Shown: positions 95 through 51,556 of the stretch, one piece after another
How positions within the stretch are numbered: position 1 is the first letter of the stretch
Layout: each line of letters starts with the position of its first letter
NCBI GenBank assembly: GCA_016195025.1
Contig: JACQAL010000072.1
Location: 1 to 55,207 of the forward strand
Origin: Bacteroidota bacterium
Lineage (GTDB): Bacteria; Bacteroidota; Bacteroidia; Palsa-948
Reading direction: 5' to 3'
DNA: 55,207 nt
Position numbers and translations under genes: made by a program
Notes under the pieces: model-generated
The model's database searches: none
Told to the model about the DNA's origin: nothing
The model's input: only the letters and a program-made list of their open reading frames with translations

Positions 95-1678
95 ATGAAA
101 ACCAAAATGCAGAAGTACGAATGGCGCGGAACCGCGCCAAACATTCAAACCTTCAAGGTTTTGAAAACCTTGAAGGTTTACAACAGCCCTGTTCGATTGT
201 TCGATTGTTCGGTTGTTCGGTTGTTCTGTATTTGCATTTTCTTGAAAAGTCCCAAGCCCCAAGTATCAAGTCCCAAGTTCCAAGAAGCAGCCGGCATTCG
301 CTGTTCCTTGAAACTTGGAATTTGGAATTTGGGACTTGAGACTTTGCTGTTGCTTTTCTTCCTTTGCCAACTGCCAACTGCCAACTGCTCCGCACAAAGT
401 GACGGAGTCCGTATTCCATCGGACCAACTTTCTAAAGTGGATTCCCTCCTCACCGCAAAAGAAAACACGAATAAGGTGAATGCGCTGATAGAACTTGGAA
501 AAGAAATGGAAGCGGGCAGTGATAATGAAAAAAGAATAAGTTATTCCATGCAGGCAAAACAACTGGCGGAGAAATTAAATTACAAGAAGGGAATGGCTGC
601 CGCTTTGTTTAATCTCGGCAACACTTACTTTGACCACGCCAATTATCCCGAAACATTAAAAAATTATTTCGCCTGCCTCCGCCTCAGCGAAGAACTGAAC
701 GATAAAAAAACAACCGCTGCCATTCTCAGCAACCTCGGAATCGTATATTGGATTCAGCAGGATTACCGCCAGTCGCTGGCGTATTATTTTCGCTCGCTGA
801 AGATTGCGCAAGAAGCGGGATTCAAAAAACTCGAAGAAGGAAATTACGGCAACATCGGAATTGTATATGACGAGCAAGCCAATTATCCGCAGGCATTGTT
901 CTATCATTCCAAGGCGCTCAAACTTGCCCGGGAGCGCGGAGATAAAAACGGAATTGCACGCCACACGGGCAACATCGGCAACGTGTACAAGCGCCAGAAA
1001 GAATTTGCCGGTGCGCTTGATTATTATTTCCGCGCGCTGAAGATGAAAGAAGAACTGGATGATAAAAAAGAAATTGAAATCACGCTCGGCAACATCGGAA
1101 CGGTGTATCTTGCCACTCAAAAATACAACGAAGCGGAAAAGTTTTTGCAGCGCGCCCTTCTTCTCAGCGATTCGCTCGGTGATTTGGAAGGAGAAAAAGA
1201 ACTGCATGAAAACTTCAGTGTGTTAGACAGCGCGCGCGGCAATTTCAAAGGTGCGCTGGAGCATTATAAAAAATTCATCTCTGCCCGCGATACAATCAAC
1301 AGCGATGAGAACCAGAAAAAGCAAGTGCGCGTAGAAATGAACTACGAGTTTGACAAGAAAGAAGCGCTGGCAAAAGCAGAACAGGAAAAGAAAGATGCGG
1401 TTGCAGCAGCCGAAAAGAAAAGACAAAAGATAGTTTTGCTGTTTGTTGTTTGCGGTTTGTTGTTAGTCGTTGCATTCGCTGCGTTTATTCTACGTGCTTT
1501 TCTCGCCATCAAAAAGAAGAACAAAGAAATCTCCGAGCAAAAACGAATCATAGAAGAAAAGCAAAAAGATATTCTCGACAGCATCCACTACGCAGCCCGC
1601 ATTCAAAAGTGCATGATGCCCAATGAGAAGTGGATTGCAAAAGAAATTGCGCGGCTGAAAGCGCAAGGAAAGAAATAA
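95..1678 (+). CDS. TPR-repeat membrane protein with coiled coils, no phosphatase domain
   Basis: This 527-residue protein has about six 40-residue TPR units between residues 165 and 385 (GNIGxVY...A motifs), a charged coiled coil, one membrane segment near 446-468, a second coiled coil and the terminal motif SIHYAARIQ. The layout matches the neighbouring SpoIIE phosphatase protein up to its membrane and linker region, but the catalytic domain is absent. The likely role is a periplasmic TPR sensor or adaptor, which is inference. The first 85 or so codons are made almost wholly of short repeats (see the repeat entries) before a hydrophobic stretch LLLLFFL and a probable signal-peptidase site near CSAQ. 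The true start is uncertain: ATG 95 keeps the frame, but an in-frame TTG at 329 would give a normal signal peptide. Confidence 0.8.
   Translation: MKTKMQKYEWRGTAPNIQTFKVLKTLKVYNSPVRLFDCSVVRLFCICIFLKSPKPQVSSPKFQEAAGIRCSLKLGIWNLGLETLLLLFFLCQLPTANCSAQSDGVRIPSDQLSKVDSLLTAKENTNKVNALIELGKEMEAGSDNEKRISYSMQAKQLAEKLNYKKGMAAALFNLGNTYFDHANYPETLKNYFACLRLSEELNDKKTTAAILSNLGIVYWIQQDYRQSLAYYFRSLKIAQEAGFKKLEEGNYGNIGIVYDEQANYPQALFYHSKALKLARERGDKNGIARHTGNIGNVYKRQKEFAGALDYYFRALKMKEELDDKKEIEITLGNIGTVYLATQKYNEAEKFLQRALLLSDSLGDLEGEKELHENFSVLDSARGNFKGALEHYKKFISARDTINSDENQKKQVRVEMNYEFDKKEALAKAEQEKKDAVAAAEKKRQKIVLLFVVCGLLLVVAFAAFILRAFLAIKKKNKEISEQKRIIEEKQKDILDSIHYAARIQKCMMPNEKWIAKEIARLKAQGKK
122..139. repeat. Perfect 8-bp hairpin, GC-rich
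   Basis: The arms TGGCGCGG (122-129) and CCGCGCCA (132-139) are separated by AA. The hairpin lies within the first codons of the TPR gene that starts at 95 and is the first of a stack of repeats in 95-425. Confidence 0.8.
147..179. repeat. 33-bp perfect palindrome inside the N-terminal coding region
   Basis: The two 16-base arms around the central G at 163 are exactly complementary (left arm AAACCTTCAAGGTTTT). It is translated in frame as TFKVLKTLKV. It is a strong potential RNA hairpin or cruciform and looks like an inserted element rather than protein-selected sequence. Confidence 0.9.
191..225. repeat. 8-bp tandem repeat, GTTCGATT / GTTCGGTT type
   Basis: About four units of an 8-bp motif lie within the coding frame. 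The same motif recurs at 52872-52899, inside the signal region of the last gene of the window, over 52 kb away. Confidence 0.85.
247..340. repeat. Inverted-repeat block of CAAGTCCCAAG / CTTGGAATTTGG units
   Basis: The left half repeats variants of TCAAGTCCCAAG; the right half carries the complementary TTGGAATTTGGGACTT. The block can form a long stem and is translated in frame. A close copy lies at 1690-1790 in the same position of the next gene. Confidence 0.85.
365..388. repeat. 7-bp tandem repeat TGCCAAC in a signal-peptide region
   Basis: About three and a half units of a 7-bp motif encode CQLPTANC next to the hydrophobic core. Because three units equal seven codons and no frame of this unit contains a stop, the array is neutral to the reading frame. 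Similar arrays occur at 1802-1829 and 6288-6320. Confidence 0.85.
402..425. repeat. 24-bp dispersed repeat, copy 1 (ACGGAGTCCGT...CGGACC)
   Basis: This 24-mer differs at only two positions from 17154-17177, which lies inside an aminotransferase gene. Sixteen bases of it (CCGTATTCCATCGGAC) recur in reverse complement at 52529-52544. GTCCG and CGGAC can pair into a small hairpin. Here it is in frame just after the predicted signal peptide. Confidence 0.85.
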
Positions 1679-1681
1679 AAA

Positions 1682-3871
1682 ATGAAAACAAGTTCCAAAT
1701 ATCAAGTATCAAGTCCCAAGCCCCAAGAAAAGGCAAAAGCCGTTGGCTGTTCCTTGGGACTTGGAATTTGGAATTTGGGATTTGGAACTTTGCTGTTCTT
1801 TTGCCAACTGCCAACTGCCTATTGCCAACTTTCTAAGGTGGATTCTCTCCAGCAACTTATTCTCACTGCGAAAGAAGATACCGATAAAGTAAACGCGCAA
1901 AATAGTTTAAGCAAATACTATCTTGAACTCGGCAATTATTCGCAGGCAATGAAAGTTGCGTCAGATGCAAAGGCGCTTGCTGAAAAAATAAATTTCAGAA
2001 AAGGAAAAGCGAATGCGCTTAACAACACGGGGAAAATTTTCTGGTCGCAGGGAAATTATGCCGATGCGCTCAAAAATCATTTGCAGGCGTTGAAAATCCG
2101 CGAAGAGATTGGCGATAAAAAAGGCGCGGCAAGTTCCTATGGAAATATCGGCAACATTTATCAGTCGCAGGGCAATTATCCCGAAGCCATCAACAATTAC
2201 CTGAAAGCGCTGAAAGTGTTTGAAGAGTTAGACGACAAGCGCTTAATTGCCGCTACGCAAAATAATATCGGGCTGGTGTATTGGTCGCAGCAGAATTATG
2301 CCGAAGCGCTGAATTATTACAATCAATCGCTGAAAATAAGGAAGGAGATAAATGACAAACCCGGCATCGCTACTTCGTGCAACAACATCGGGTTGATATT
2401 TTATGACCAGCATAATTATTCCGATGCGCTGAAAAACCATTTGCTTGCTTTGAAACTACGCGAAGAAACAGGCGATAAAAAAGGAATTGCCGATTCCTAC
2501 AACAACATCGGAATTATTTACGAGAAGCAAAAAAAATATTCCGATGCGCTGGCAAGTCATTTCAAAGCGCTGAGCATACGGCAGGAAATTGGCGACAAGA
2601 AAGGAATTGCTTCTTCGCATATCAACATCGGAAATGTTTTTGCCACCGAGAAAAAAATCGGCATTGCAAGAGAGCATTTGAACAAAGCGCTCGAACTTTC
2701 AAAAGAAATTGGCGCGAAGGAATATATTAAAGATAGTTTTGCAGGACTTGCACTTGCCGACAGCGCAGAAAAAAATTTCGAAGGAGCATTTAACGATTAC
2801 AAGCGCTACGTTGCTTACCGCGATAGTTTGGTGAACGAAGAAATCACCAAGAAGACCGTGCAGGCGCAAATGAATTACGAGTTTGAGAAAAAGCAGGCAG
2901 AAGAAAAATTAGAACAGGAACGCAAAGATGCCATTGCCAAACGCGAGCGCGAACGCGAACTGATGATTCGAAATTTTTTCATCGCTGCCTCTGTACTTAT
3001 GCTTGCGCTGGTTTTTTTTATTTACCGCGGCTACCGCAGCAAGCAGAAAGCGAATATAATCATCACGCAGCAGAAAGAAGAAGTGGAGCGGCAAAAAGAA
3101 ATCATCCAGGAAAAAAACCAAGGCATCACTGACAGCATCAACTATGCACAGCGCATTCAGCGCGCGCTGTTTGCATCGGATGCGCTTCTTCAGAAAAATT
3201 TTCCCGGCTATTTTATTTTCTTCAAGCCGAAAGATATTGTGAGCGGAGATTTTTACTGGGCTGCGGAAAAAGACAACCGGTTTTACCTCGCGGTATGCGA
3301 TTCCACCGGCCATGGCGTGCCGGGTGCATTCATGAGTTTGCTGAACATTTCTTATCTGAATGAAGCGGTGAATGAAAAAAGCAACACGCACCCGCACGAA
3401 ATTTTTAATCACGTGCGCCAGCGGCTCATTGAAAATATTTCTTCCGAAGGCGCGCAGGATGGAATGGATGGAATATTGCTATGCTGTTCCAAAGAAGAAG
3501 GGATTAAGATTGAATACGCGGCAGCAAACAATGCGCCTGTTCTTGTTCGTGATGGAAAAATCAGTGAACTCGAAACCGATAATATGTCCGTTGGCTTGAG
3601 CGAAAGAAAAAACTCTTTTACGCACAGGGTTGTTCCATCAACCATCAACCGTCAGCCATCAACCCTTTACCTTTACACCGATGGCTTTGCCGACCAGTTT
3701 GGTGGTGAGAGAGGAAAAAAATTCAAGTACAAACAACTCAATGAAAAATTAATTTCTCTCAACCATCTTACTTTAACCGAACAGAAAAAAGAACTGGAAA
3801 AAACTTTTGATGAGTGGAAAGGAAATCTTGAACAGGTGGATGACGTACTTGTAATAGGTATTAGAATATAG
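1682..3871 (+). CDS. TPR sensor with C-terminal SpoIIE/PP2C-type phosphatase domain
   Basis: This 729-residue protein has an N-terminal signal region containing repeat-derived sequence, about seven TPR units (residues 110-370), a coiled coil, a membrane segment near 430-450, a second coiled coil with the YAQRIQ linker, and a SpoIIE-like Ser/Thr phosphatase domain (508-729). Metal-site motifs are visible: VSGDFYW, CDSTGHGVPGAFMS near 539 and YTDGFADQFGG near 664. The family dephosphorylates partner proteins such as anti-sigma-factor antagonists; the target here is unknown. The 3-bp gap from the preceding TPR gene suggests co-transcription. A 7-bp tandem repeat (3635-3664) is inserted in frame just before the YTDG motif, in what should be a loop. 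ATG 1682 is the only plausible upstream start. Confidence 0.9.
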   Translation: MKTSSKYQVSSPKPQEKAKAVGCSLGLGIWNLGFGTLLFFCQLPTAYCQLSKVDSLQQLILTAKEDTDKVNAQNSLSKYYLELGNYSQAMKVASDAKALAEKINFRKGKANALNNTGKIFWSQGNYADALKNHLQALKIREEIGDKKGAASSYGNIGNIYQSQGNYPEAINNYLKALKVFEELDDKRLIAATQNNIGLVYWSQQNYAEALNYYNQSLKIRKEINDKPGIATSCNNIGLIFYDQHNYSDALKNHLLALKLREETGDKKGIADSYNNIGIIYEKQKKYSDALASHFKALSIRQEIGDKKGIASSHINIGNVFATEKKIGIAREHLNKALELSKEIGAKEYIKDSFAGLALADSAEKNFEGAFNDYKRYVAYRDSLVNEEITKKTVQAQMNYEFEKKQAEEKLEQERKDAIAKRERERELMIRNFFIAASVLMLALVFFIYRGYRSKQKANIIITQQKEEVERQKEIIQEKNQGITDSINYAQRIQRALFASDALLQKNFPGYFIFFKPKDIVSGDFYWAAEKDNRFYLAVCDSTGHGVPGAFMSLLNISYLNEAVNEKSNTHPHEIFNHVRQRLIENISSEGAQDGMDGILLCCSKEEGIKIEYAAANNAPVLVRDGKISELETDNMSVGLSERKNSFTHRVVPSTINRQPSTLYLYTDGFADQFGGERGKKFKYKQLNEKLISLNHLTLTEQKKELEKTFDEWKGNLEQVDDVLVIGIRI
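1690..1790. repeat. Inverted-repeat block, second copy
   Basis: Same family as 247-340: TCAAGTCCCAAGCCCCAAG units on the left and TTGGAATTTGGAATTTGGG on the right. It encodes the residues between the initiator methionine and the hydrophobic part of the signal peptide of the phosphatase gene. Confidence 0.85.
1802..1829. repeat. 7-bp tandem repeat TGCCAAC, second copy
   Basis: Four imperfect units encode CQLPTAYCQL at the predicted signal-peptide cleavage region, matching the position of the array at 365-388 in the previous gene. Confidence 0.8.
3635..3664. repeat. 7-bp tandem repeat (CCATCAA) inside the phosphatase domain
   Basis: Four units, one of them diverged, encode PSTINRQPST directly before the conserved YLYTDG motif. 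The same motif occurs in bioA at 9459-9487. Confidence 0.85.
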
Positions 3872-5248: not shown

Positions 5249-6253
5249 ATGAAAAAATTTATGGCTCTGCATCCCGATAAAATCGGGACTCGCGAAGAGA
5301 TAAAAGAAATTTATAACACTCCGCTGCTCGATTTGATTTTCCACGCGGCATCGGTTCACCGGAAATTTCACAACCCTTCCGAAGTTCAGGTGAGTTCACT
5401 GCTATCAGTAAAAACGGGCGGCTGCCCGGAAGATTGCGGTTACTGTCCGCAGTCGGCAAAATATCAAACGGAGGTCAACATTCATAAAATGCTTTCGCTC
5501 CGCGAAGTTTTAGATGCGGCATCAAACGCGAAAGCAAACGGTGCAACGCGCATGTGTTTGGGCGCTGCGTGGCGCGAAGTGCGTGATAATTCTGATTTCG
5601 ATAAAGTGCTCGAGATGGTAAAAGGAATTAATGAAATGGGAATGGAAGTTTGCTGCACGCTCGGCATGCTCACTGAATCGCAGGCGAAAAAACTTGCCGA
5701 TGCGGGATTGTATGCCTACAATCACAATTTAGATTCTTCAGAAGATTTCTACAAAAAAATTATTACTACAAGAAAATACGATGACCGCCTGAACACGATT
5801 GAAAATGTGCGCAAGGCAAAAGTTACGGTTTGCTGCGGAGGAATAATCGGAATGGGAGAATCGGTGGAAGACAGAATCGAAATGCTTCACACGCTTTCCA
5901 ATCTGAATCCCCAGCCCGAATCAATTCCGATTAACGCGCTGGTGGCAGTGGAAGGAACTCCTCTTGAAAAACAAAAACCAATTTCTATCTGGGAAATGCT
6001 CCGCATGATTGCCACTGCAAGAATTGTGATTCCGAAATCAGTAGTACGTTTATCTGCGGGAAGAACTGAAATGAGCATTGAAGGACAGGCGCTTTGTTTT
6101 CTCGCAGGTGCGAATTCGATTTTTGCCGGTGATAAACTGCTCACCACTCCGAATCCTGATTTTAATGAGGACATGGAAATGTTCAAACTTCTCGGCTTGA
6201 AATCGCGCGAAGCATTCAACTATAAAGAAGCAAGTGAAGAAATTTCCGTATGA
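5249..6253 (+). CDS. bioB: Biotin synthase
   Basis: This 334-residue radical SAM enzyme inserts sulfur into dethiobiotin, the last step of biotin synthesis. The radical SAM cluster motif is [13 protein letters not shown]; further family signatures are [20 protein letters not shown] and SAGRTEMS, and the near-C-terminal [17 protein letters not shown]. The start at 5249 follows the predicted promoter. Residues HPDKIGTR near the N-terminus are encoded by a perfect 7-bp palindrome (5272-5288) of the same family as intergenic hairpins; this region is variable in BioB and probably tolerates the insertion. The stop overlaps the next start (ATGA). Confidence 0.97.
5272..5288. repeat. Palindrome TCCCGAT-AAA-ATCGGGA within bioB
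   Basis: Perfect 7-bp arms with a 3-nt loop lie at codons 8-14 of bioB. The core is identical to those of 3908-3934 and 47676-47693. Located just inside the coding start, it could also affect translation initiation, which is inference. Confidence 0.85.
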
Positions 6254-6984
6254 AAAAAAAATACTTCTATATAATTATTTTTCTTTTTGCCATCTGCCAT
6301 CTGCCATCTGCCGTTTGCCATTCGCAGGAGGGATATTTTTACCATAGGAAAGGAGATGGAGATAAATATTTTGTTTCACTCGGCTATGGCGAAGGAACCG
6401 CTCACTGGAAATCTGTTTTCAGAAGCACGGAGTTTTATGATAAAGACGGGCGCGTAATCAATACGGGCGATTTCGAATTTGGTGCGAACAGCCCCACGAA
6501 ACATTACGATATGAATGTTATGGCACCTATCAAACACATTCGCCTTGGCATGGGAATTTGTTTTGAGCATCATTATTTATCGCAGCTCAAAGTGTATGCA
6601 AAAGGCGGGGAAGAATATTTGTTGTTCGATGAAAGTTTGCGCTTCGATAAAATTTATTTTCAATCCGAAATCCCATTCAACTATGAATCGAAAAAGAAAT
6701 ATTCCTTCAACTGGAATTTCAGAGGAGGATGGTATGGCTACACAAACGTGAAACGCTTTAATTTCATAGGAGAAAAGCCGTTTCCCATTGCAATTCTTGC
6801 CACTACCGGGCTTATGGCTGATTATGAAATTTATCCTTCCGTTTATATTTTTGCATTTCCAAATTTTGAATATAAATTTTACGACAACGCGCGTACGGAA
6901 GCTCCCGTGCAAATCCGCCACAGTGTTTTTACGGCTTCCATTATTTGCGGAGTGCGCATTGACATGGGAAAATTCCACGACTAA
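6250..6984 (+). CDS. Secreted or outer-membrane protein of unknown function in the biotin operon
   Basis: I do not recognise this 244-residue protein. It begins with a signal peptide ([14 protein letters not shown]...) whose C-region is written by a 7-bp tandem repeat (6288-6320). The mature part is rich in aromatic residues alternating with polar ones ([27 protein letters not shown]) and ends in a beta-strand-like segment, suggesting a small outer-membrane beta-barrel. The start overlaps the bioB stop by 4 bp and bioF follows 11 bp later, so it is almost certainly co-transcribed with biotin genes. A role in uptake or export of a precursor would be a guess. Confidence 0.8.
6288..6320. repeat. 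7-bp tandem repeat TGCCATC in a signal peptide
   Basis: About four and a half units encode the CHLPSAVCH segment of the signal peptide in the gene following bioB. It has the same period and position as the TGCCAAC arrays at 365 and 1802. Confidence 0.85.
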
Positions 6985-6995
6985 AATAGCTGAAC

Positions 6996-8168
6996 TTGAA
7001 AGAAGAATTTTTGCGCGAACAATTGCGCGGGCGAAAAGAAAAAGGATTGCTGAGAAAACTTTCCTCTGAAAATAATCTTATTGATTTCACTTCGAACGAT
7101 TATCTCGGCTTTGCCCGCTCCAAAGAATTAAAAAATAGTTTGGCAGTTGAACTTGAAACTTTAAACTTTAAACTTGAAACCGGTTCCACCGGTTCCCGCC
7201 TTCTTACCGGAAATTCTTTTTATGCCGAAGAATTAGAAAAGTTCATAGCAAATTTTCATTACGCAGAAACAGGATTGTTTTTTAATTCCGGCTATGATGC
7301 AAATCTCGGATTGATTTCTTCCGTTGCAAAAAAAGGCGATGCAATTTTTTACGATGAACTTTCGCACGCTTCCATTTACGATGGAGTGCGTTTGTCAAAA
7401 GCGGAATCTTTTCCGTTCAGTCACAACAATAGCGCGCATCTCGAAGAAAGATTAAAATATTTCCGGAGGAATTATTCTGGAAATTGTTTTGTAATTGTTG
7501 AGAGCGTGTATTCTATGGACGGAGATTTTTCTCCGCTGAAAGAAATTTCAGAATTATGTTCAAGTCACAATGCGCATTTAATTGTTGACGAAGCGCACGC
7601 CACAGGAATTTTCGGAGCCAAAGGCGAGGGGAGATGCGTTGAATTCAACCTGCAGGAAAATTTTTTTGCACGCATTCACACTTTTGGAAAAGCGCTCGGC
7701 TGCCATGGCGCCATTGTTCTGGGAAGCGATGCGCTGAAAAATTATCTCATCAACTTCGCCCGCTCGTTTATCTATACTACTGCGTTGCCCATTCATAGTT
7801 TGGCGGCAATCAAATGCGCATATCAACTTCTTCAAAAAAGTAACGAGACGAATCAACTCAGGAAATTAATTACTGCATTTAAATCACAGATGAAAGAAAA
7901 ATATATTTCCGGTTTGCCGGAAAGTTCAAGTCCTATTCAATCTCTCATCATTGCAGGAAATGAACGTGTGAAAAAAATCTCATCGCTGATTCAGAAAGAC
8001 GGTTTTGATGTGCGCCCTATTCTCAGCCCCACTGTTCCAAAAGGAAAAGAACGAATCCGTATTTGCATTCATTCATTCAATACCGAAGTTGAAATTTTTA
8101 AGTTAACCTCTTCGTTGAAAAAAAATTGTAACCTTGCACCTTCAAAACAAGCAGTCGTTTCCGGATGA
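6996..8168 (+). CDS. bioF: 8-amino-7-oxononanoate synthase (KAPA synthase)
   Basis: This 390-residue PLP enzyme of the alpha-oxoamine synthase family condenses pimeloyl-thioester with L-alanine. Visible motifs are FTSNDYLGFA, GSTGSRLLTGNS, DELSHASIYDG, ESVYSMDGD, IVDEAHATGIFG, and the PLP-lysine motif TFGKALGCHGAIV. No ATG precedes the conserved N-terminus; TTG at 6996 gives the expected LREQLRGRKEKG beginning (a CTG lies two codons earlier). A repeat (7151-7180) encodes the residues LETLNFKLET just before the conserved GSTGSR motif. The 3' end overlaps bioD by 4 bp. Confidence 0.95.
   Translation: MKEEFLREQLRGRKEKGLLRKLSSENNLIDFTSNDYLGFARSKELKNSLAVELETLNFKLETGSTGSRLLTGNSFYAEELEKFIANFHYAETGLFFNSGYDANLGLISSVAKKGDAIFYDELSHASIYDGVRLSKAESFPFSHNNSAHLEERLKYFRRNYSGNCFVIVESVYSMDGDFSPLKEISELCSSHNAHLIVDEAHATGIFGAKGEGRCVEFNLQENFFARIHTFGKALGCHGAIVLGSDALKNYLINFARSFIYTTALPIHSLAAIKCAYQLLQKSNETNQLRKLITAFKSQMKEKYISGLPESSSPIQSLIIAGNERVKKISSLIQKDGFDVRPILSPTVPKGKERIRICIHSFNTEVEIFKLTSSLKKNCNLAPSKQAVVSG
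7151..7180. repeat. Short repeat (ACTTGAAAC / TTTAAAC) within bioF
   Basis: The segment is built from ACTTGAAAC and CTTTAAA units with internal symmetry and encodes ETLNFKLET inside the enzyme, immediately before a conserved substrate-binding segment. It resembles the other low-complexity arrays of the window. Confidence 0.65.
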
Positions 8169-8893: not shown

Positions 8894-10201
8894 ATGAAAA
8901 CTCTTTCGAAGAGAGATAAAAAAATAATATGGCATCCGTATACGCAGCATAAACTCAACCCTGCTTCTATTGGAATTGTAAAAGCAAAGGGTACGTATGT
9001 ATATGACGAGAGCGGAAAAAAATATATTGATGCTCTCGGTTCCTGGTGGACTTGCCTGCACGGGCATGCACATCCTTACATTGCTAAAAAAGTTTCTGCG
9101 CAGTTAAAAAAAACAGAACACGTAATCTTTGCAGGATTTACTCATCAACCTGCTGTTGAACTTGCAGAGCGTTTATTGAAAAAACTTCCGAAGAATCAAA
9201 AACGAATTTTCTTTTCTGATAACGGCTCCACCGCTGTGGAAGTTGCGCTGAAAATGTGTTTTCAATATTGGCACAACAAAGAAATTCTGAAAACAAAAGT
9301 CATCGCTTTTAAAAATTCTTATCACGGAGATACTTTTGGAGCAATGTCAGTGAGTGAGCGCGGTGCATTTACAAAACCGTTTCATTCAAATTTATTTGAA
9401 ACAATTTTTATTGATGCTCCTGTGAAAGGAAAAGAACAAAAATCTATTCAGCAACTCACATCAACCATCAACCATCAACCATCAACCATTTCATCTTTCA
9501 TCTTCGAACCAATTGTGCAGGGCGTTGCCGGAATGGTAATTCACGAAGCAAAAGCATTGGAAGAAATGATTCGCATTTGCAAAGAGAATAATATTTTCAC
9601 TATTGCCGATGAAGTGTTCACAGGGTTTGGCAGAACGGGAAAATTTTTTGCAACTGATTATTTTAAAAAGAAACCGGATTTATTTTGTTTGTCGAAAGGA
9701 TTAACTGGCGGAACCATGCCGATGGGAATTACTTCCTGCACGGAAGAAATCTTCAATGCATTTCTTTCAGAAGACCGGATGAAAACTTTTTTTCACGGAC
9801 ATTCGTTCACTGCAAATCCGGTTGCATGTTCTGCCGCGCTGGCAAGTTTGGATTTGATGGAAAGGAAAGCAACGTGGAACAATATTGGAAGAATTGAGAA
9901 TAGAAATAAAATTTTTTCGAAACATATCGATGGAAATAAAGTGATAAGAGAACTAAGAGCAATGGGTGTTATATTGGCAATAGAATTGAAAACAGAAAAT
10001 GAAACTTCCTATTTTAATTCCATCCGCGATAAGGCAACTAAATTTTTTCTTCAGAAGGGAATTCTTCTTCGTCCGCTCGGCAATGTAATTTATCTTGTGC
10101 CGCCATACTGCATAAGCGATAAAGATTTGGATTACATTTATGCTTCAATTGAAGAATTCATTGAAGCAAGCGCCAATGACCAAATCCCAAATGACAAATA
10201 A
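8894..10201 (+). CDS. bioA: Adenosylmethionine-8-amino-7-oxononanoate aminotransferase (DAPA synthase)
   Basis: This 435-residue class III PLP aminotransferase converts KAPA to DAPA. The diagnostic IWHPYTQ motif is near the N-terminus; SWWTCLHGHAHP, FFSDNGSTAVEVALKM, YHGDTFGAMSV, ADEVFTGFGRTG and the PLP-lysine motif CLSKGLTGGTMPMG follow. A 7-bp tandem repeat (9459-9487) inserts STINHQPST before the conserved SSFIFEPIVQG segment. The last residues and the stop codon lie in a repeat arm (10188-10203), so the element appears to have set the C-terminus. It completes the B-x-F-D-A biotin set. Confidence 0.96.
   Translation: MKTLSKRDKKIIWHPYTQHKLNPASIGIVKAKGTYVYDESGKKYIDALGSWWTCLHGHAHPYIAKKVSAQLKKTEHVIFAGFTHQPAVELAERLLKKLPKNQKRIFFSDNGSTAVEVALKMCFQYWHNKEILKTKVIAFKNSYHGDTFGAMSVSERGAFTKPFHSNLFETIFIDAPVKGKEQKSIQQLTSTINHQPSTISSFIFEPIVQGVAGMVIHEAKALEEMIRICKENNIFTIADEVFTGFGRTGKFFATDYFKKKPDLFCLSKGLTGGTMPMGITSCTEEIFNAFLSEDRMKTFFHGHSFTANPVACSAALASLDLMERKATWNNIGRIENRNKIFSKHIDGNKVIRELRAMGVILAIELKTENETSYFNSIRDKATKFFLQKGILLRPLGNVIYLVPPYCISDKDLDYIYASIEEFIEASANDQIPNDK
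9459..9487. repeat. 7-bp tandem repeat (CATCAAC x4) within bioA
   Basis: Four exact CATCAAC units plus one base encode a TSTINHQPST stretch in a surface-loop position. It is the same motif as in the phosphatase gene at 3635-3664. Confidence 0.9.
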
Positions 10202-16546: not shown

Positions 16547-16861
16547 GTGAAAAATCATGCAAAGATAGTTTTATGTTTTTTTCTCGCATGGTTGTTCTTT
16601 TTTTATTCCGGAAAATGTTTTTCGCAGCGTGTGGCAGAAAATAATTCTATTATTTCCGGAGCGAAAAATATTGCCGCAGTGGCTGCGCCCATTGTGAAAG
16701 ATGCGTATAAAAGAGAAGAAAACAGAAATGCCGTAGTGAAAGGCATAAGCAATCTGGCAGGACAAGCGGTTCCATTGGCAGAAAAAGCCGCGCCTATTAT
16801 GCGAAAAGGATTTGTAATTGGAAAAAAGATTTTGAAAGTTCTTAAAAAGATTTTGCGATGA
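16547..16861 (+). CDS. Small secreted protein of unknown function
   Basis: This 104-residue protein starts at GTG: a basic KNHAK is followed by a hydrophobic core IVLCFFLAWLFFFYSG and a likely cleavage site near CFSQ. The mature part is a short alanine- and lysine-rich amphipathic helix region (AAVAAPIVKDAYKREENRN...LAEKAAPIMRKGFVIGKKIL). No ATG fits the signal peptide, and the upstream -7 box supports the GTG. The stop overlaps the next start (ATGA), so it is coupled to the aminotransferase. No family recognised. Confidence 0.65.
   Translation: MKNHAKIVLCFFLAWLFFFYSGKCFSQRVAENNSIISGAKNIAAVAAPIVKDAYKREENRNAVVKGISNLAGQAVPLAEKAAPIMRKGFVIGKKILKVLKKILR
16560..16567 (-). promoter_or_regulatory. 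-7 box of the methyltransferase promoter
   Basis: TATCTTTG on the minus strand, 50 bp upstream of the methyltransferase start. It lies inside the first codons of the oppositely oriented small secreted gene, so the two promoters face away from each other and overlap. Confidence 0.45.
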
Positions 16862-18078
16862 CCAACCGGGAAATATTTTTTAATCATATCGCGCAGACAT
16901 CTCTTTCTCCGCCTGCGCTTGAAATAAAATCTGCAAACGGAATTTATATCTATGGAGCTGATGGAAAAAAATATTTCGATTTGATTTCAGGAATATCGGT
17001 TAGCAATTTAGGGCATGGCAATTCAAAAATTGTCAGCGCGATAAAAAAGCAACTCGATAAGCATAAATATGTAATGGTCTATGGAGAATTTATTGTTTCC
17101 CCGCAGGTGGAATATGCAAATCTTCTTGTAAAATATCTTCTCCGAACGAAGTTACGGAGTCCGTCTTCCAGCGGACCTAAAAATTTAGATAATGTTTATT
17201 TCACTTCCTCCGGTGCGGAAGCGGTTGAAGGCGCACTGAAACTTGCAAAACGTTTTACGGGAAGAACTGAAATCATTGCATTCAAAAATTCTTATCATGG
17301 CAGCACGCACGGAGCGTTGAGCGTGATGGGAAATGAAATGTTCAAGCAGGCATTTCGCCCGCTGCTTCCGGATATCCGCTTTCTGGAATTTAACAATGAA
17401 AAAGATTTAGCGCTGATAAGTTCTAAAACTGCCTGCGTAATTGTTGAACCCATTCAGGGAGAAGCAGGAATTATTTTACCGCAAAAAAATTTTCTGGAAA
17501 AACTTCGGGACAAATGCGGTGATGCCGGAGCATTATTAATCTTTGATGAAATTCAAACCGGAATGGGAAGAACCGGAAAACTTTTTGCGTTTGAAAAATA
17601 TAAAGTTGTCCCGGATATTCTTTGCCTTGCAAAAGCACTTGGAGGTGGAATGCCGATGGGCGCATTCATCTCTTCTAAAAAAATTATGTCAACGCTTTCG
17701 TACGAACCGGTGCTCGGGCACATTACAACTTTTGGCGGTCATCCGCTGAGTTGCGCTGCGGGAATTGCTTCCATGAAAGAAATTGTTTCAAAAAAATTAT
17801 TTCTTTCTGCTGAGAAAAAAAATAAATTGTTCAGAAAACTTCTCAAACATTCGCGCATAAAAGAGATACGGGGAGAAGGATTGCTTTTAGCAATTCAGTT
17901 TTCCAGTGAAAAAGAAAATAAAAAAATAATTTCAAAATGTATTGAGAATGGTGTCATCACCGACTGGTTTCTTTTTCGCGCGGATGCGATGCGCATTGCG
18001 CCTCCTATCATAATTTCGGAAAAAGAGATTAAACTTGCATGCGAAATAATTCTTCGTTCAATTGAATCTATAAAATAA
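16858..18078 (+). CDS. Class III aminotransferase (acetylornithine/ornithine-type)
   Basis: This 406-residue PLP enzyme has GKKYFDLISGISVSNLGH, FTSSGAEAVEGALKLAKR, YHGSTHGALSVMG, EPIQGEAGI, FDEIQTGMGRTGKLFA and the PLP-lysine motif CLAKALGGGMPMGAF. The overall pattern fits the acetylornithine/4-aminobutyrate/ornithine group; exact substrate is undetermined. It lacks the WHPYTQ motif and is therefore not a second BioA. Codons for TKLRSPSSSGPKN carry the 24-bp dispersed repeat (17154-17177), inserted in frame before the conserved VYFTSSGAEA segment. Translationally coupled upstream and followed 5 bp later by a two-component system. Confidence 0.92.
   Translation: MTNREIFFNHIAQTSLSPPALEIKSANGIYIYGADGKKYFDLISGISVSNLGHGNSKIVSAIKKQLDKHKYVMVYGEFIVSPQVEYANLLVKYLLRTKLRSPSSSGPKNLDNVYFTSSGAEAVEGALKLAKRFTGRTEIIAFKNSYHGSTHGALSVMGNEMFKQAFRPLLPDIRFLEFNNEKDLALISSKTACVIVEPIQGEAGIILPQKNFLEKLRDKCGDAGALLIFDEIQTGMGRTGKLFAFEKYKVVPDILCLAKALGGGMPMGAFISSKKIMSTLSYEPVLGHITTFGGHPLSCAAGIASMKEIVSKKLFLSAEKKNKLFRKLLKHSRIKEIRGEGLLLAIQFSSEKENKKIISKCIENGVITDWFLFRADAMRIAPPIIISEKEIKLACEIILRSIESIK
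17154..17177. repeat. 24-bp dispersed repeat, copy 2, inside the aminotransferase gene
   Basis: Identical to 402-425 at 22 of 24 positions. It adds a serine- and proline-rich loop to the enzyme without changing the frame (24 is a multiple of 3). Confidence 0.88.
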
Positions 18079-18083
18079 ATTTT

Positions 18084-18758
18084 ATGAATGTTCTCATAGT
18101 GGAAGATGAAAAAGGGCTTTCGGCAGAGATAAAATCTTTTCTGGAGAAAGAAAATTTTTTATGCGAAAGCGCCTACACGGGCAAGGAGGCATCCGAAAAA
18201 ATTTTTGTAAACAACTATGATTTTGTTTTGCTTGATTTGGGTTTGCCGGATTATGAAGGATTAAATCTTCTAAAGGAAGCCCGTGAAGCAAACCGTGAAT
18301 CGGCTTTTATAATTTTGACTGCGCGCGGTGCGGTGGATGATAAAATAAAAGGATTGAATCTTGGAGCGGATGATTATCTGGCAAAACCGTTTTCACTTCT
18401 GGAATTGCTTTCGCGCATGCAGGCGATTACGCGGAGAAAACACGGGCTGAAAAAAAATCTCATTAAAGTTTTTGATTTCACCATAGATATTCAAAAGCGT
18501 TCCGTTCTTCAAGGAGCAAAAGAAATTGCTCTCACGAAAAAAGAATTTGACATTCTCGTTTATCTTGTGCTTCATAAAAACCGCGTGCTTACGCGCAACC
18601 AACTTACCGAACACATTTGGGGTGATGTGCTCGAAGAGGATTACGATTCCAACTATGTGGACGTGCATATAAAAAATCTCCGGAAAAAATTAGCAGCACA
18701 CGCTTCTGCTGATTGGCTCGAAACAGTCCGCGGAATCGGTTATCGCGTTAACGCCTGA
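18084..18758 (+). CDS. Two-component response regulator, OmpR/PhoB type
   Basis: This 224-residue regulator has a receiver domain (LIVEDEKGL with acidic pocket residues 7-9, phospho-acceptor Asp51 in LLDLGLPD, LTARG, and LAKPF with the conserved Lys) and a winged-helix DNA-binding domain (IALTKKEFDILVYLVLHKNRVLTRNQL...VDVHIKNLRKKL...VRGIGYRV). It controls unknown targets. The sensor kinase starts 4 bp after its stop, so the pair is co-expressed, probably with the aminotransferase upstream. Confidence 0.95.
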   Translation: MNVLIVEDEKGLSAEIKSFLEKENFLCESAYTGKEASEKIFVNNYDFVLLDLGLPDYEGLNLLKEAREANRESAFIILTARGAVDDKIKGLNLGADDYLAKPFSLLELLSRMQAITRRKHGLKKNLIKVFDFTIDIQKRSVLQGAKEIALTKKEFDILVYLVLHKNRVLTRNQLTEHIWGDVLEEDYDSNYVDVHIKNLRKKLAAHASADWLETVRGIGYRVNA

Positions 18759-35772: not shown

Positions 35773-38700
35773 ATGAAAAAATATTTTTTTCTGCCGACAT
35801 TGTTGTTTTTTGCGAGTTTGTATGTCTTCGCAAAAAATAATACTTGGAATGCCAATCCTTGCAATCAAAAGGTTTTCATAGAAAACAAAGGGCAGTTTGA
35901 CAGCGAATCAAAAAAAATATTGTTTGCTTCTTCCCAAGGCGGAGTTGGTTTGTTTTTCAAATCAAACGGATTAATTTACAAGTATGTTGAATTAGTTCCA
36001 ATGACGGAAGAAGAAAAAGAAAAAATAGAAACACCAGCAAAGAAAAATAAATATGTAGAAGAAGAGTCAATGATTAAACAAATTCCCCATTATCTTTCTG
36101 TAGAATGGCTGAATGCGAACCCCAATGTCCAAACTATCAGCGAGGAGCCGGTTTCATTTTATTACTCGTATGGAAAAAATACAAAAGCAAGCGCATACAA
36201 AAAAATTATTTACAAAAATCTTTATCCAAACATTGATGCAGTGTATGAATTTCCTGAAGGAAAAGAAGGTGTGAAGTATTCTTTGATTCTTCATCCCGGT
36301 GCAAATCCTTCGGATGTAAAAATGAAATGGAGCGGCAAAATTTCTTCCGATGCTTCGGGAAACATTACTATTAAATCTTCCTTCGGAAATTTCATTGACC
36401 ACGCTCCTGTTTCTTATTATGAAAATGGTGAAAAGATTGGTTCGTCTTTTGAATTGGCAGGTAACATCGTTTCGTTCAAACTCCAAACTCTAAACCTCAA
36501 ACTCCAAACTATTATCATTGACCCTTGGACAACCAATCCCACTTTCAACACGAACAATAAAGCATATGAAGTGGCGTATGACAATGCGGGAAATGTGTAT
36601 GCGTACGGTGCGGGCGCTGCTGCGAGCACTCCCCATCAACTGGCGAAGTTCAATAGCGCGGGAGCGTTACAATGGATATACAGCGCAACGAGTATTGCGA
36701 GTTATCAAAATGATTTCGGAGATTTTACTGTGGATAAAAATACAGGCAACTGTTATGTGGCTGAACAATGGGCTGGCAATTCGGGTTATCCTACGATAAT
36801 GCAAATTTCAACTAATGGAATGTTAATGAAAAGTGTTTTCTATAATAACACTACAAATAAAAAAGCAGTGTTTGAATTTCAGCGATTGGAATTTAATGAT
36901 TGCAATCAGACAATTGTGTGCGGCACAGGCGGTCTTCCGAATTCTTCGGGCTTTGATAACACGCAAGCCGTGGTGTTTGATTTAAACCTTAATACAGTAG
37001 TTAATCAAACTTCGGTGGTAAGCACTATTGATGGAGTGGATGTGCAATTGTTAGCAATAGATAAATATAGTTGCTGCCAATATGGATATATTCTTACTGA
37101 CTATAATACGTATACCGGCAATAAATGCCGGTTGGTAAAAATGGCAATGGCTGGATTATCTTCTGTATGGAATATTCCCACGCAGCATAAATTTGCAGAA
37201 GCATATAGCGCGCTGTACAAAGCTACTCCGAATGTTGGCGGTCCCTGCAATGGCGCTGGTTGTTCAAACGGCTATAACGGAATTGCCGTGAGCCCGACTT
37301 ATGTTTATACATATGACAGCGACTCGATTTGCAGATGGGATAAAAACTCAGGCGCATTGGTTGCTTCCGCACATGTTTCGTCCACAGCGCCATCTTACAG
37401 TAGCTGTTGGTTTAATAGCGGTGCAATTGAAATTCATTGGGGAGGGCTTGATGTGGATGAATGCGACAACACTTATGTGGGAGTAGGAAAAGCAATTAAA
37501 GTTTATGATTTATCTTTCAATCTTATCAACACTTACAATCTTCCCGATACAGTTTATGATTTACACCTCGCTCCGAACAATAAATTATACGCCAGCGGAA
37601 AAGGATTTGTAACGGAAATAAATAATACAGTTGCAACGAGCAGCACAACATATTCTGTAACGGTTTCATCCACCCCATCATCAGGATGCAGTGCTTGCAA
37701 CGGAACTGCAAATGTTGTTGCAACCGCAACTGTAACCTGCGGTGCTCCGCCAGTGTTTTCATATTCTTGGGCGCCCGGAGGGCAAACCACTACTGCGATT
37801 TCAAATTTATGTCCGGGAAATTATACTGTAACAGTCACAAGCAATTGCTTTCCTGTCTCCACACAAACTGTTGTAATCACCGGAGGAAGTATTGTGGTGG
37901 CAACTGCAACTGCGTCTCCAACCACCTGTGGAAACAATAACGGCTCGGCAAGCGTAACCGTTACTACCGGAACGGCTCCTTACACATACAGTTGGTCGCC
38001 ATCAGGAGGAACAAGTTCTGCCATTTCAAATCTTGCAGCAGGAAATTATACCGTAACGGTTACCGATGCGGGCGGATGTTCAGCCATTCAAACAGTTTCG
38101 GTTGCGCCATCAACAGGAATCACAGCCACTGCAGGACCAAATCCCACAATCTGCGCGGGACAATCGGCAACTATTTCCGCAACGGGAGGCGGAACGTATT
38201 GGTGGACGAACGGAAATACAAATTCATCCATTATCATTTCTCCTGCATCAAGCACAACCTATTCAGTAATTGTTACAACGAACGGATGCACGGATACTGC
38301 TTCTGCAATGGTAACGGTGAATCCATTGCCGACTGTTACTGTTCCGAATACAACTATTTGTATTGGCGGTGCTGCAACGCTTACTGCCAGTGGGGGAACA
38401 AGTTATTCGTGGAGTAATGGTTCAACCTCAAATCCAATTTCTGTTAATCCTCCTTCCACAACTACTTATATAGTTGTGGGAACGAATGCAAGCGGCTGTT
38501 CCGGTTCCGCATCCGTAACAGTTTCAGTTTCTCCTCCTCCAATTGCTTCCGCCATATCAGCCACCATTTGTTCAGGGCAAAGCGCAGCGCTCACTGCAAG
38601 CGGTGGAGGAAATTATTTGTGGAATACCGGCAATACAAATTCTTCCATCATCGTTTCGCCCACTGCCACTTCAAATTATTCGGTGGTTGTTTCCATCGGC

Positions 38701-43019: not shown

Positions 43020-45899
43020 ATGAAAAAATTATTTTTACTCTTATCCGTTATTTTTCTTTCACGCATTGTAAATTCCCAAAACTGGTACTGGGCGCGTGCA
43101 AGTTCGGGCAGCAGCGTTCAACTGGCAACGGGCGTTGCGGTGGACGGTTCGGGAAATGTTTATGTTACCGGTTTTTTTGATGGCGGCTCCATCACTTTCG
43201 GAACAACCACCGTTACTTCTGCGGGCAACCGAGATATTTTCCTTGTAAAATATTCTCCCTGCGGAAATGTGCTCTGGGCGAAAAGTTTCGGAGGCGCGAG
43301 TTACGATGCAAGCTGGTCGGTTGCCACCGATGCCAGCGGAAATGTTTTTGTAACCGGATACATTGAAGGCACGGCAAACTTCGGTTCAGTCACGCTCACA
43401 CCGGGCGGAACCAACCCGAATGTTTTCCTGGTGAAATGCAATCCGGCAGGCGTTGTGCAGTGGGCGAAAAATTCTTCGGGCAGCGCGCCAATTCCTCCCG
43501 GAACACTTGTGGATAATCAGGGGCATTGCGTTTCCACCGATGCCGCGGGCAATTCCTACATCACCGGCTGGTTCGCCACTACGAATATCACTTTTGCTCC
43601 CACTACACTTGTAAATGCTTCGTCAAGCGGAGTTCCCTATGAAGTTTTCGTGGTGAAGTACGATGCTGCGGGAAATATGGTGTGGGCGAAAAGCGCGCAG
43701 GGAACACAAAATGATTTTGGAAATTCCATCGCGGCAGATAATTTTGGAAATGTATATGTAACCGGCTCGCACATGACCACTATCAACTTCGGAAACACTT
43801 CTCTCGTCAATTCTACTTTCAACAGCGATATGTTTCTCGTGAAATACGATGCGTCAACCGGCTCAGACCTCTGGTCAACAAAAGGAATTCCGAACAACGC
43901 AAGCGGTCCCACTGAAATCGGACAGACAGTTGCAACGGACGCTCCGGGAAATATTTATGTGGGCGGACAATATAGTTCTCCTTATATTATTTTCGGAACC
44001 GATACGCTCTTCAATTCGCAGACCTCTTTCCCCATGACCTATGATTATTTCATAGCGAAATATAATTCAGCGGGCGCAGCGCAGTGGGCGAAGTCAGGCG
44101 GAAGCGCATCGGGAAATTAAAATGGCGCGAGCATTGCCGTTGACACATTGAAGGGAGTTTACCTCACCGGAACTTTCACTTCTCCTTCCATCACCATTGG
44201 AACGAACACGCTTTTCAAAACAGGCGCATCCGACCCCATGTTCATTGCCGAATACGATGTTTCAGGAAATGTTCTCTGCGCCACTTCGCTCGACAACGGT
44301 GTGCCCGATTACGATAACATCATGGACATTGCCACGGATTCTTTCGGGCAAATGTTTCTTGCCGGTGACTACGCGAAGAATCCTTTAATCATCGGTTCAA
44401 ATTCCCTTCCTCTAACCGGAACTTACAATTCGTTCTCTGCCAAATTCACTTGCGGTCCTCCGCTTCCTTATGCGCAATTATCGGCAAGCGTAACTGCAAC
44501 CTCTGCCGCCTGTTCTTCTCCGAATGGAAGCGCCACTGCAACCGCAACGGGAGGAAGTTCGCCTTATACTTTTCAGTGGAGTAATTCGCAAACCGCGCAA
44601 ACTGCTACCGGGCTTGCTGCAGGAAATTACACCGTAACAATTACCGATGCCAACGGATGCAGTGTTTCATCCACTGCCACCATTACCGCAGCCGCATCTC
44701 CGACAGTTGCTGTATCATCATCTCCTGCAAGTTGTTCTTCTCCTACAGGAAGCGCAACTGCAACGGTGAGCGGAGGAAATTCTCCTTATACCTATAATTG
44801 GTCATCGGGCGCAACCACTTCTGCCGCCACCAATCTTTCCGCAGGAAATTATTCTGTTACCGTAACGGATAATTCAGGATGCACGGCAACTGCAACTGTT
44901 TCCGTGAGCGCGATTGGCGCGCCAACAGTTACCGCTACTTTTTCAAATCCCTTGTGCAACGCGGGAACAAACGGGACTGCAACAGCAACGGTGAACGGAG
45001 GAAGTTCTCCTTATACTTTTTCATGGAGCAGCGGGCAGACAACTTCCGTTGCCACCAATCTTTCCGCAGGAAATTATTCTGTTACTGTAACAGATAATTC
45101 AGGATGTTCGTCAACACAAACCGTAATGCTCACGCAGCCCAATGCTATTTCTGTTTCCCCTTCTTCAACTGCAAACACAAGTTGTGTTTCACCGAATGGA
45201 AGCGCGACTGCAAATGCAAGCGGAGGAACAAGCCCGTTTACTTATTCATGGAGCAATGGCGGAACAACTTCTCAAATCTCAAATCTCACTTCTCAAATCT
45301 ATTCCGTAACAATCACAGACAATAACGGCTGCACGGCAACGCAAACGGTTTCAGTTGCGGGACCAACACTTCCCACAATTTCCATTTCAGGAAATGCAAA
45401 CATTACATCAGGGCAAAGCATAACAATTTCTACTAGTGCGAGTGGAGGAAATCCTTCCTATACTTATGCGTGGAGTCCTTCAACTGGATTGTCCTGCATT
45501 TCTTGTGCGAACGCTGTTGCAACTCTAACTGAAACTACAACCTATTGCATTTTGATTACAGATGCGAACGGTTGTTCCGATAGTTCCTGTATAACCATCA
45601 ATGTTGAAATTCCCTGCAAAGGGATTTATGTGCCCAACGCTTTTTCTCCCAATACAGATAATGAAAATGATTTCTTCCGCGTTTACTTCGGAAATATTTT
45701 ATGCGTGAAAGAATTCAAAATGGTTGTGTATGACCGATGGGGAGAAAAAGTGTTTACTACCGCTGATGCCGCATTTATGTGGGATGGAATGTACAATGGG
45801 ACGCTGATGCAATCCGGTGTCTTTACCTATTATATGTATGCCCGCTTTGATAACGGAGATGAAGTGAACAAAAAAGGAAATGTGACTCTGCTAAAATAA
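43020..45899 (+). pseudogene. SBBP/SprB-repeat T9SS type B surface protein split by an in-frame TAA
   Basis: One reading frame runs from ATG 43020 to TAA 45897-45899 (959 codons) with a single internal stop, TAA at 44118-44120. Before it are a signal peptide and SBBP repeats (GVAVDGSGNVYVTGFFDGG, SVATDASGNVFVTGYIEG, SIAADNFGNVYVTGS). After it the same repeat continues (NGASIAVDTLKGVYLTGTF), followed by four to five SprB/PKD-like repeats (PYTFQWSNSQTAQTATGLAAG) and a T9SS type B domain (IYVPNAFSPNTDNENDFFRV ... MVVYDRWGEKVF). The stop falls where a Tyr codon is expected (GN-stop-NG), so one base change, TAT or TAC to TAA, explains it. No initiation signal lies after it. It could be a fresh null mutation, a phase-type switch or a sequencing error. 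Confidence 0.85.
45270..45300. repeat. Short repeat TCTCAAA inside the split SprB-type gene
   Basis: Units of TCTCAAATCTCAAAT encode SQISNLTSQI in place of the usual ISNLxAGxY segment of the SprB-like repeat. Confidence 0.65.
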
Positions 45900-51283: not shown

Positions 51284-51556
51284 GGCTTAACAGAAGATAC
51301 TTCCGGTTTAACAATCGGTACTTCCGGCTTAACCAAAGGTACTTCTGTTAAATGAGAAGACACTCCTCATTTAACCATCGGTACTTCGGGCTTAACAATC
51401 GGTACTTCTGTTAAGACCATCGGTACTTTTGGCTTAACCATCAGTACTTCTGTTAAGACCATCGGTACTTTTGGCTTAACAATCGGTACTTCTGTTAAGA
51501 CCATCGGTACTTCTCATTTAACGAGCGGTACTTCCGGCTTAACAGAAGCCGTTCCA
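51284..51556. repeat. 21-bp tandem array, 13 units, coding-like on the minus strand
   Basis: Thirteen units of exactly 21 bp (consensus GGCTTAACAATCGGTACTTC plus one base) run without interruption. Units alternate between GGCTTAAC and GTTAAGAC starts, so the array is partly a two-unit (42-bp) repeat. On the minus strand, in the same frame as the gene that ends at 51565, it reads EVPIVKP / KVPMVLT heptapeptides, but two TAA codons precede it and two units contain TGA. The 622-bp gap 50943-51564 otherwise holds the MITE-like element and small hairpins. Confidence 0.92.

Follow-up and report, generated by a model that had tools for sequence, protein, structure and literature searches.

Nested short repeats in frame within the leader of a TPR sensor gene of a Bacteroidia genome, and their probable use as a signal peptide

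Near the start of the window, the whole stretch of 55,207 nucleotides analyzed here (contig C72 of a 3.5-Mb genome, G000, in 79 contigs), a gene for a predicted TPR sensor opens with a dense nest of short repeats. This raises the question of how such a nest was built inside a gene and whether it is translated. The initial annotation had placed six repeat features within positions 95–425, in a frame open from 95 to 1678, and all six were found where it had placed them (Table 1); its 24-mer was present, but only as part of a longer 35-bp element, here called E36. The product, P0001, comprises 527 amino acids encoded in one open frame, matched TPR families with an E value of 8.5e-31 in a profile search, and has its ATG 3 nt 3′ of the stop codon of an upstream paralogue. 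Across the whole window, the palindrome of the nest is the only one with arms of at least 11. The next gene, P0002, carries the same inverted-repeat block and 7-bp array, as had been proposed.

Table 1. Features of the two TPR sensor genes and of other repeat-bearing genes in the window.
Feature	Position	Strand	Description
P0001	95..1678	+	Predicted secreted/membrane TPR sensor; residues 1–110 are a repeat-encoded leader
Hairpin	122..139		8-bp arms TGGCGCGG-AA-CCGCGCCA, read directly
Palindrome	147..179		33 bp, perfect, 16-bp arms, REP-like; reads TFKVLKTLKVY
Octad array	190..226	+	8-bp units TGTTCGAT/TGTTCGGT, 4.6 copies, 96%; encodes VRLFDCSVVRLF (TRF)
In-frame insertion	244..363		120 nt, heptad inverted repeat; ends uncertain by a few bases
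Heptad inverted-repeat block	247..344		Arms 261–283/322–344, 91%; arrays 247–284 and 307–344
TGCCAAC array	365..388	+	7-bp units, 3.4 copies, 100%; encodes CQLPTANC (TRF)
E36	389..423		35 bp, TCCG(N)..ACGGAGTCCGT..CGGA; 12 extra codons (SAQSDGVRIPSD)
P0002	1682..3871	+	TPR and SpoIIE-type phosphatase sensor; signal peptide (putative) of heptad inverted repeat and TGCCAAC array
Heptad inverted repeat, start of P0002	1690..1790		Reads SSKYQVSSPKPQ...LGLGIWNLGFGT
TGCCAAC array, end of P0002 signal peptide	1802..1830	+	TRF
TGCCATC heptad array	6288..6321	+	Within putative signal peptide of ORF 6250–6984 (26-residue signal-like peptide)
ArgD-like aminotransferase	16858..18078	+	TIGR00707, E 1.1e-104; in-frame E36 copy
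E36 in ArgD	17141..17175	+	12 extra codons LRTKLRSPSSSG; absent from 11/11 aligned relatives

The nest probably consists of accumulated short mobile or dispersed repeats in a leader that is translated, with the arrays supplying the signal peptide. Several very short, non-autonomous, stop-poor repeat families would be dispersed through the genome and its sister species and tolerated wherever the reading frame survives. The signal peptide of P0001 would owe its hydrophobic core and its cleavage region to three components: the octad array, the TGCCAAC array and the hydrophobic arm of the heptad inverted repeat.

Counted across the genome, each family checked recurred far above control. The 33-bp palindrome has 7 exact copies, against 0 for the reversed control, and its 29-bp core matches 29 places with at most 3 mismatches. 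E36 was found at 6 places with at most 3 mismatches (0 in the control); beyond this genome, none was detected across 18 other genera, and one copy was found in genome G004. The heptad pattern TTGGRAYTTGGRAYTTG gave 39 matches here, against 1 in the control, and is patchy in the class, being present in 31 of 247 genomes, with 61 matches in G005, 59 in G013 and 125 in G229. The cyanobacterial STRR are also 7-bp tandem arrays scattered across unrelated lineages. The heptad inverted repeat has a core, CCAAGAAACAGCC...GGCTGTTCCTTGG, that is common to five copies and absent from the reversed control, suggesting that the repeat disperses as a unit. The octad arrays would spread in the same way, as inverted-repeat units, with array length changing locally, while E36 would be an insertion unit by which exactly 36 nt are gained. 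No mobilizer was found for the heptad units or for E36.

For the palindrome, a candidate mobilizer was found on contig C75, where the ORF at 17805–18398 corresponds to a REP-associated tyrosine transposase (RAYT; NF047646 REP_Tyr_transpos, E 3.5e-17, 62.6 bits with a curated cut-off of 80), scoring 16.7 bits against Pfam Y1_Tnp, under the cut-off of 23. Perfect palindrome copies flank this gene at 17733 and 18433/18479, and a further copy lies in frame within it, encoding NLQGFQNLEGF at residue ≈74. The palindrome is a REP-type element, probably mobilized by the C75 RAYT. Scanning with the Y1_Tnp family was rejected as a means of finding RAYTs: it returned three IS200-like genes (on C68, C19 and C18) with no palindrome and missed the one on C75. 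Among 30 Bacteroidia RAYT loci, sampled regardless of palindromes, most had long palindromes within or beside the gene, and about a third had one inside the frame. These palindromes are ≈33 bp in size and consistent within a locus, but differ in sequence from one RAYT to another. The exact 29-bp core occurred, among the matches listed, in many Bacteroidota and in Parabeggiatoa, Thiomargarita, Ignavibacteria and Marinimicrobia; its sharing by Bacteroidota, giant sulfur bacteria and Ignavibacteria (L170–L249) suggests horizontal RAYT/REP spread. This part of the story is already known, because palindromes that flank a RAYT and are inserted inside its gene have been described for TnpA_REP subclass 2.4, a group abundant in Bacteroidetes and Cyanobacteria with "long" and "double foot" REPs (PMC6006769). 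The likeness is drawn from that description rather than from a tree or motifs and covers only the 33-bp palindrome; the other five repeats have no known RAYT.

Comparison with paralogous leaders indicated how the nest was put together. A common start, MKTKMQKYEWR(A/G)TAP-palindrome-VYNSPVRLF, is found at five loci: the P0001 leader (C72a), C51a, two loci on C1 and one on C45. The hairpin of the C51, C1 and C45 leaders differs from the C72 copy by one base. Since one block is common to these contigs, the hairpin, palindrome and octad array did not arrive independently in P0001, and six independent insertions into one gene can be ruled out. The block would have arisen once and been copied along with tandem TPR sensor genes. 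After it, the C1 leaders continue into an ordinary signal peptide (LIPLYLIPYSSHAQ), while the octad array of C51a and C45 is followed almost directly by the TGCCAAC array. In P0001, the two arrays are separated by the 120-nt (40-codon) heptad inverted repeat, for which C51a and C45 represent empty sites, with the frame kept. By this comparison, the inverted-repeat block appears to be a later, in-frame insertion into a leader that already held the common block. The 12 codons of E36 separate the signal peptide from QLSKVDSL, a junction at which P0002 and its G005 counterpart lack the element. Among the other TPR paralogues of this genome, most carry a plain signal peptide of ≈20–25 residues. A related TPR gene on C67 (L380) shows yet another type of array, three tandem copies of NKMVNGKCLMANV in the leader ahead of its signal peptide.

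The same families also occur in frame inside conserved genes. As in ArgD, E36 contributes 12 extra codons to NuoL (PNEVTDSVFHRR), and all 11 aligned relatives lack them. In a structure model of ArgD (mean pLDDT 81), the insertion forms a low-confidence loop, with pLDDT below 50 at residues 100–107, between a helix at 81–95 and a strand at 112–116. ArgD of sister species carries repeats at other sites, a heptad array SPKSQVPSPKSQ in G005 and the repeat peptide VGNRQLAVSK in G006. Within G000, heptads were found in frame in GatA, ArgS, GcvP, UvrD, BshC and others, and in a protein that we take from its family to be MqnD, which had no NCBIfam match. In alignments with PDB homologues, the ArgD, ArgS and GatA repeats fall in poorly conserved stretches. 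MiaB of this genome carries the palindrome in frame; this is not a clean insertion, because the loop in which it lies is variable in length. MiaB of G006, G003 and G011 (L149, L150 and L152) has other inserted repeat-like peptides (SPLSLGEGQRVRR, TPPLKGEGIDTPLQGLG and SKFKVQSSKLESD), which point to more intragenic repeat families in the class. More in-frame heptad arrays lie within genes of the window at 7150–7180, 9459–9504, 3635–3664, 36477–36510 and 45270–45300, and among the sequences that bear them are two ORFs that we presume to be BioF-like (AVELETLNFKLETGS) and BioA-like (TSTINHQPSTISS) and the SpoIIE domain of P0002 (VVPSTINRQPSTLYLYTDGF). An amidohydrolase-like protein of G006 and G001 (L300 and L326) contains the heptad peptides SSSKFQVPSNT and ASSKSQVPNNT, respectively; as they stand at the same place in two sister species, the peptide was probably inherited and kept.

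The heptads have coding properties that suit them to signal peptides, as judged here from hydropathy and position. Because 7 equals 1 modulo 3, an array encodes one and the same heptapeptide whichever frame is read. The main families contain no stop in any of the six frames, with SPKSQVP read from one strand and LGTWDLG from the other, and the inverted repeat gives, from either strand, a hydrophilic arm followed by a hydrophobic arm, like a signal peptide. Openness in six frames is weak evidence on its own, since half of random heptamers share it (37% at 40% GC). Signal-like peptides that include an array are MKTLFEYLGLGIWCLGLASC (L057), MKDIRLVLVFLVAWNLGLGAWNFLSAQ (L060) and, in species G006, MKFLSLLLLALTLNLGLGTWNCSAQ (L299). 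The proposal that signal-peptide regions are insertion hot spots was borne out in part. In ORFs of at least 250 amino acids, 17 of 30 heptad arrays lay within the first 60 codons, against 3.9 expected from length alone, a count that takes the first ATG as the ORF start, may thereby overstate the enrichment, and includes partly non-independent sites. The N-terminal position is not exclusive, however, as internal sites occur too, in ArgD, NuoL, MiaB, GatA, ArgS, GcvP, UvrD and MqnD, and the enrichment fits an insertion preference or mere tolerance alike. Of 13 single arrays at internal sites in ORFs of at least 200 amino acids, 12 were read in the hydrophilic direction (two-sided p 0.003); this exploratory test left out arrays of inverted-repeat pairs and the P0001 leader. 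A rule that N-terminal arrays always read in the hydrophobic direction was ruled out. Both directions were found there, so any strand rule is limited to internal sites.

It is conceivable, and we offer it only tentatively, that the heptad inverted repeat acts as a prefabricated cassette for signal peptides, working in either orientation at a gene start. Its charged hydrophilic arm followed by a hydrophobic arm might then, as the repeat spreads, give rise time and again to new or rebuilt signal peptides; candidate cases would be P0001, P0002, the second ORF of C51 and genes in G004 and G005. A search for signal peptides built from repeats returned nothing matching among the papers that were searchable.

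Whether the leaders are translated was assessed from homologues in other species. P0002 and its G005 counterpart agree in the order of the inverted repeat and the TGCCAAC array and share the junction CQLPTAYCQLSKVDSL, and in both the ATG lies 3 nt past the upstream stop in a single frame. The G004 homologue has an octad and TGCCAAC signal peptide of the C51a type with neither palindrome nor E36, and that of G003 has the octad array ahead of a normal hydrophobic core, the array being in frame in both. The residues CQLPTANC, encoded by the TGCCAAC array, recur in identical or similar form in P0002, C51a, G004 and G005. Sister-species TPR genes thus carry the same array-encoded signal peptides in frame, and for this reason the P0001 leader is most likely translated, with 95 as the likely start. 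The pair formed by P0002 and its G005 counterpart makes a good case for a translated leader.

The initial annotation had left two readings side by side, true translation of the repeats or a permissive leader with the real start downstream, and the comparisons favor the former, although P0001 itself may start downstream. On the second reading, the repeats would be an untranslated leader, the open frame a by-product of stop-poor repeats, and any effect of the hairpins would be on the mRNA. The leader RNA is indeed extremely structured, with a folding energy of −129 kcal/mol and a z of −8.9 relative to dinucleotide-shuffled sequences, and its matches to known RNA families were limited to sub-threshold hits to eukaryotic miRNA and snoRNA models. 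P0001 has two hydrophobic segments, at residues 37–50 and about 80–93, the latter far from the ATG at 95, so that a signal-like peptide would likewise result from an internal TTG start: the in-frame TTG at 308 yields MKLGIWNLGLETLLLLFFLCQLPTANC, a plausible one, and initiation may occur there or at 329. The C45 leader, moreover, runs into a stop, and a published caution holds that REPs located in N-terminal coding sequence may mostly reflect misannotated starts (PMC3733652). Against this, P0002 and its G005 counterpart, with an ATG so close to the upstream stop, would have no signal peptide at all without the repeat, the leaders of C72a, C51a, C1, G003, G004 and G005 differ in length and yet always keep the frame, and the same repeats are plainly internal in ArgD and NuoL. 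We therefore consider an untranslated leader unlikely.

Accumulated repeats in a translated leader also account better for the data than an error of assembly or a dedicated switch. Contigs C45, C51 and C72 all end in the common block, at the kind of site where assemblies break, as would be expected if reads from many repeat copies had been joined into a chimeric nest, and the position of the P0001 leader at a contig end calls for further caution. However, C1 carries two interior copies of the block upstream of TPR genes, P0002 is situated 1.7 kb into its contig, and similar leaders are present in sister species, making a chimera extremely improbable. Slippage of 7- and 8-bp arrays close to the start of predicted secreted proteins might alternatively switch the sensor on and off as a regulatory or phase-variation device, as unit lengths that are not multiples of three would shift the frame. 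Such a role is highly improbable: the arrays are short, with 3 to 5 imperfect units, and would therefore rarely slip, the same families occur in housekeeping genes, and in the homologous TPR genes that were read, the frame is continuous from the leader into the TPR region.

The component repeats are of known kinds, and their presence in genes is already known from Rickettsia and REP elements. The closest parallel is with the RPE and WPE of Rickettsia and Wolbachia, short palindromic repeats inserted in frame in several unrelated genes that stay intact (PMC3767692); the 12-codon insertions in ArgD and NuoL, each with 11 empty relatives, are of this type. The elements described here are 33 and 35 bp long, whereas RPE and WPE are 100–150 bp, and they differ further in that several families are nested in one leader, where they form putative signal peptides, and in that the host belongs to the Bacteroidia, not the Rickettsiales. 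GTAG/CGTC REPs also lie within protein genes, in their case partly repair genes (PMC3733652), whereas no GTAG or CGTC tag was seen beside the palindrome copies read here, on C72, C51 and C75. The TAACTGA heptamer repeats of Beggiatoaceae, Cyanobacteria and Bacteroidetes are likewise 7-bp tandem arrays with a patchy distribution over unrelated lineages, but contain a stop and are mostly intergenic (PMC4679880), while the main heptads here are often found in open frames. The nesting of several families of intragenic repeats within a single coding leader is a real and unusual case, and what is new is their accumulation into putative signal peptides, with the frame kept across sister species.

If this reading is correct, selfish or neutral micro-repeats could undergo translation and find a new use where one might predict it, in the signal peptide, a region with loose sequence needs. 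In-frame intragenic repeats, best known from Rickettsia, would then also be represented in a genus of the Bacteroidia, by several families together, and the clean empty sites in housekeeping genes would make the cost and fate of insertions measurable. A further warning is that repeat-encoded peptides may abound in the gene starts and protein models of such genomes. Elsewhere in the window, outside the P0001 nest, a tandem array of 21/42-bp units (ACCATCGGTACTTCTGGCTTAACA) with ≈8 units was observed at 51284–51543.
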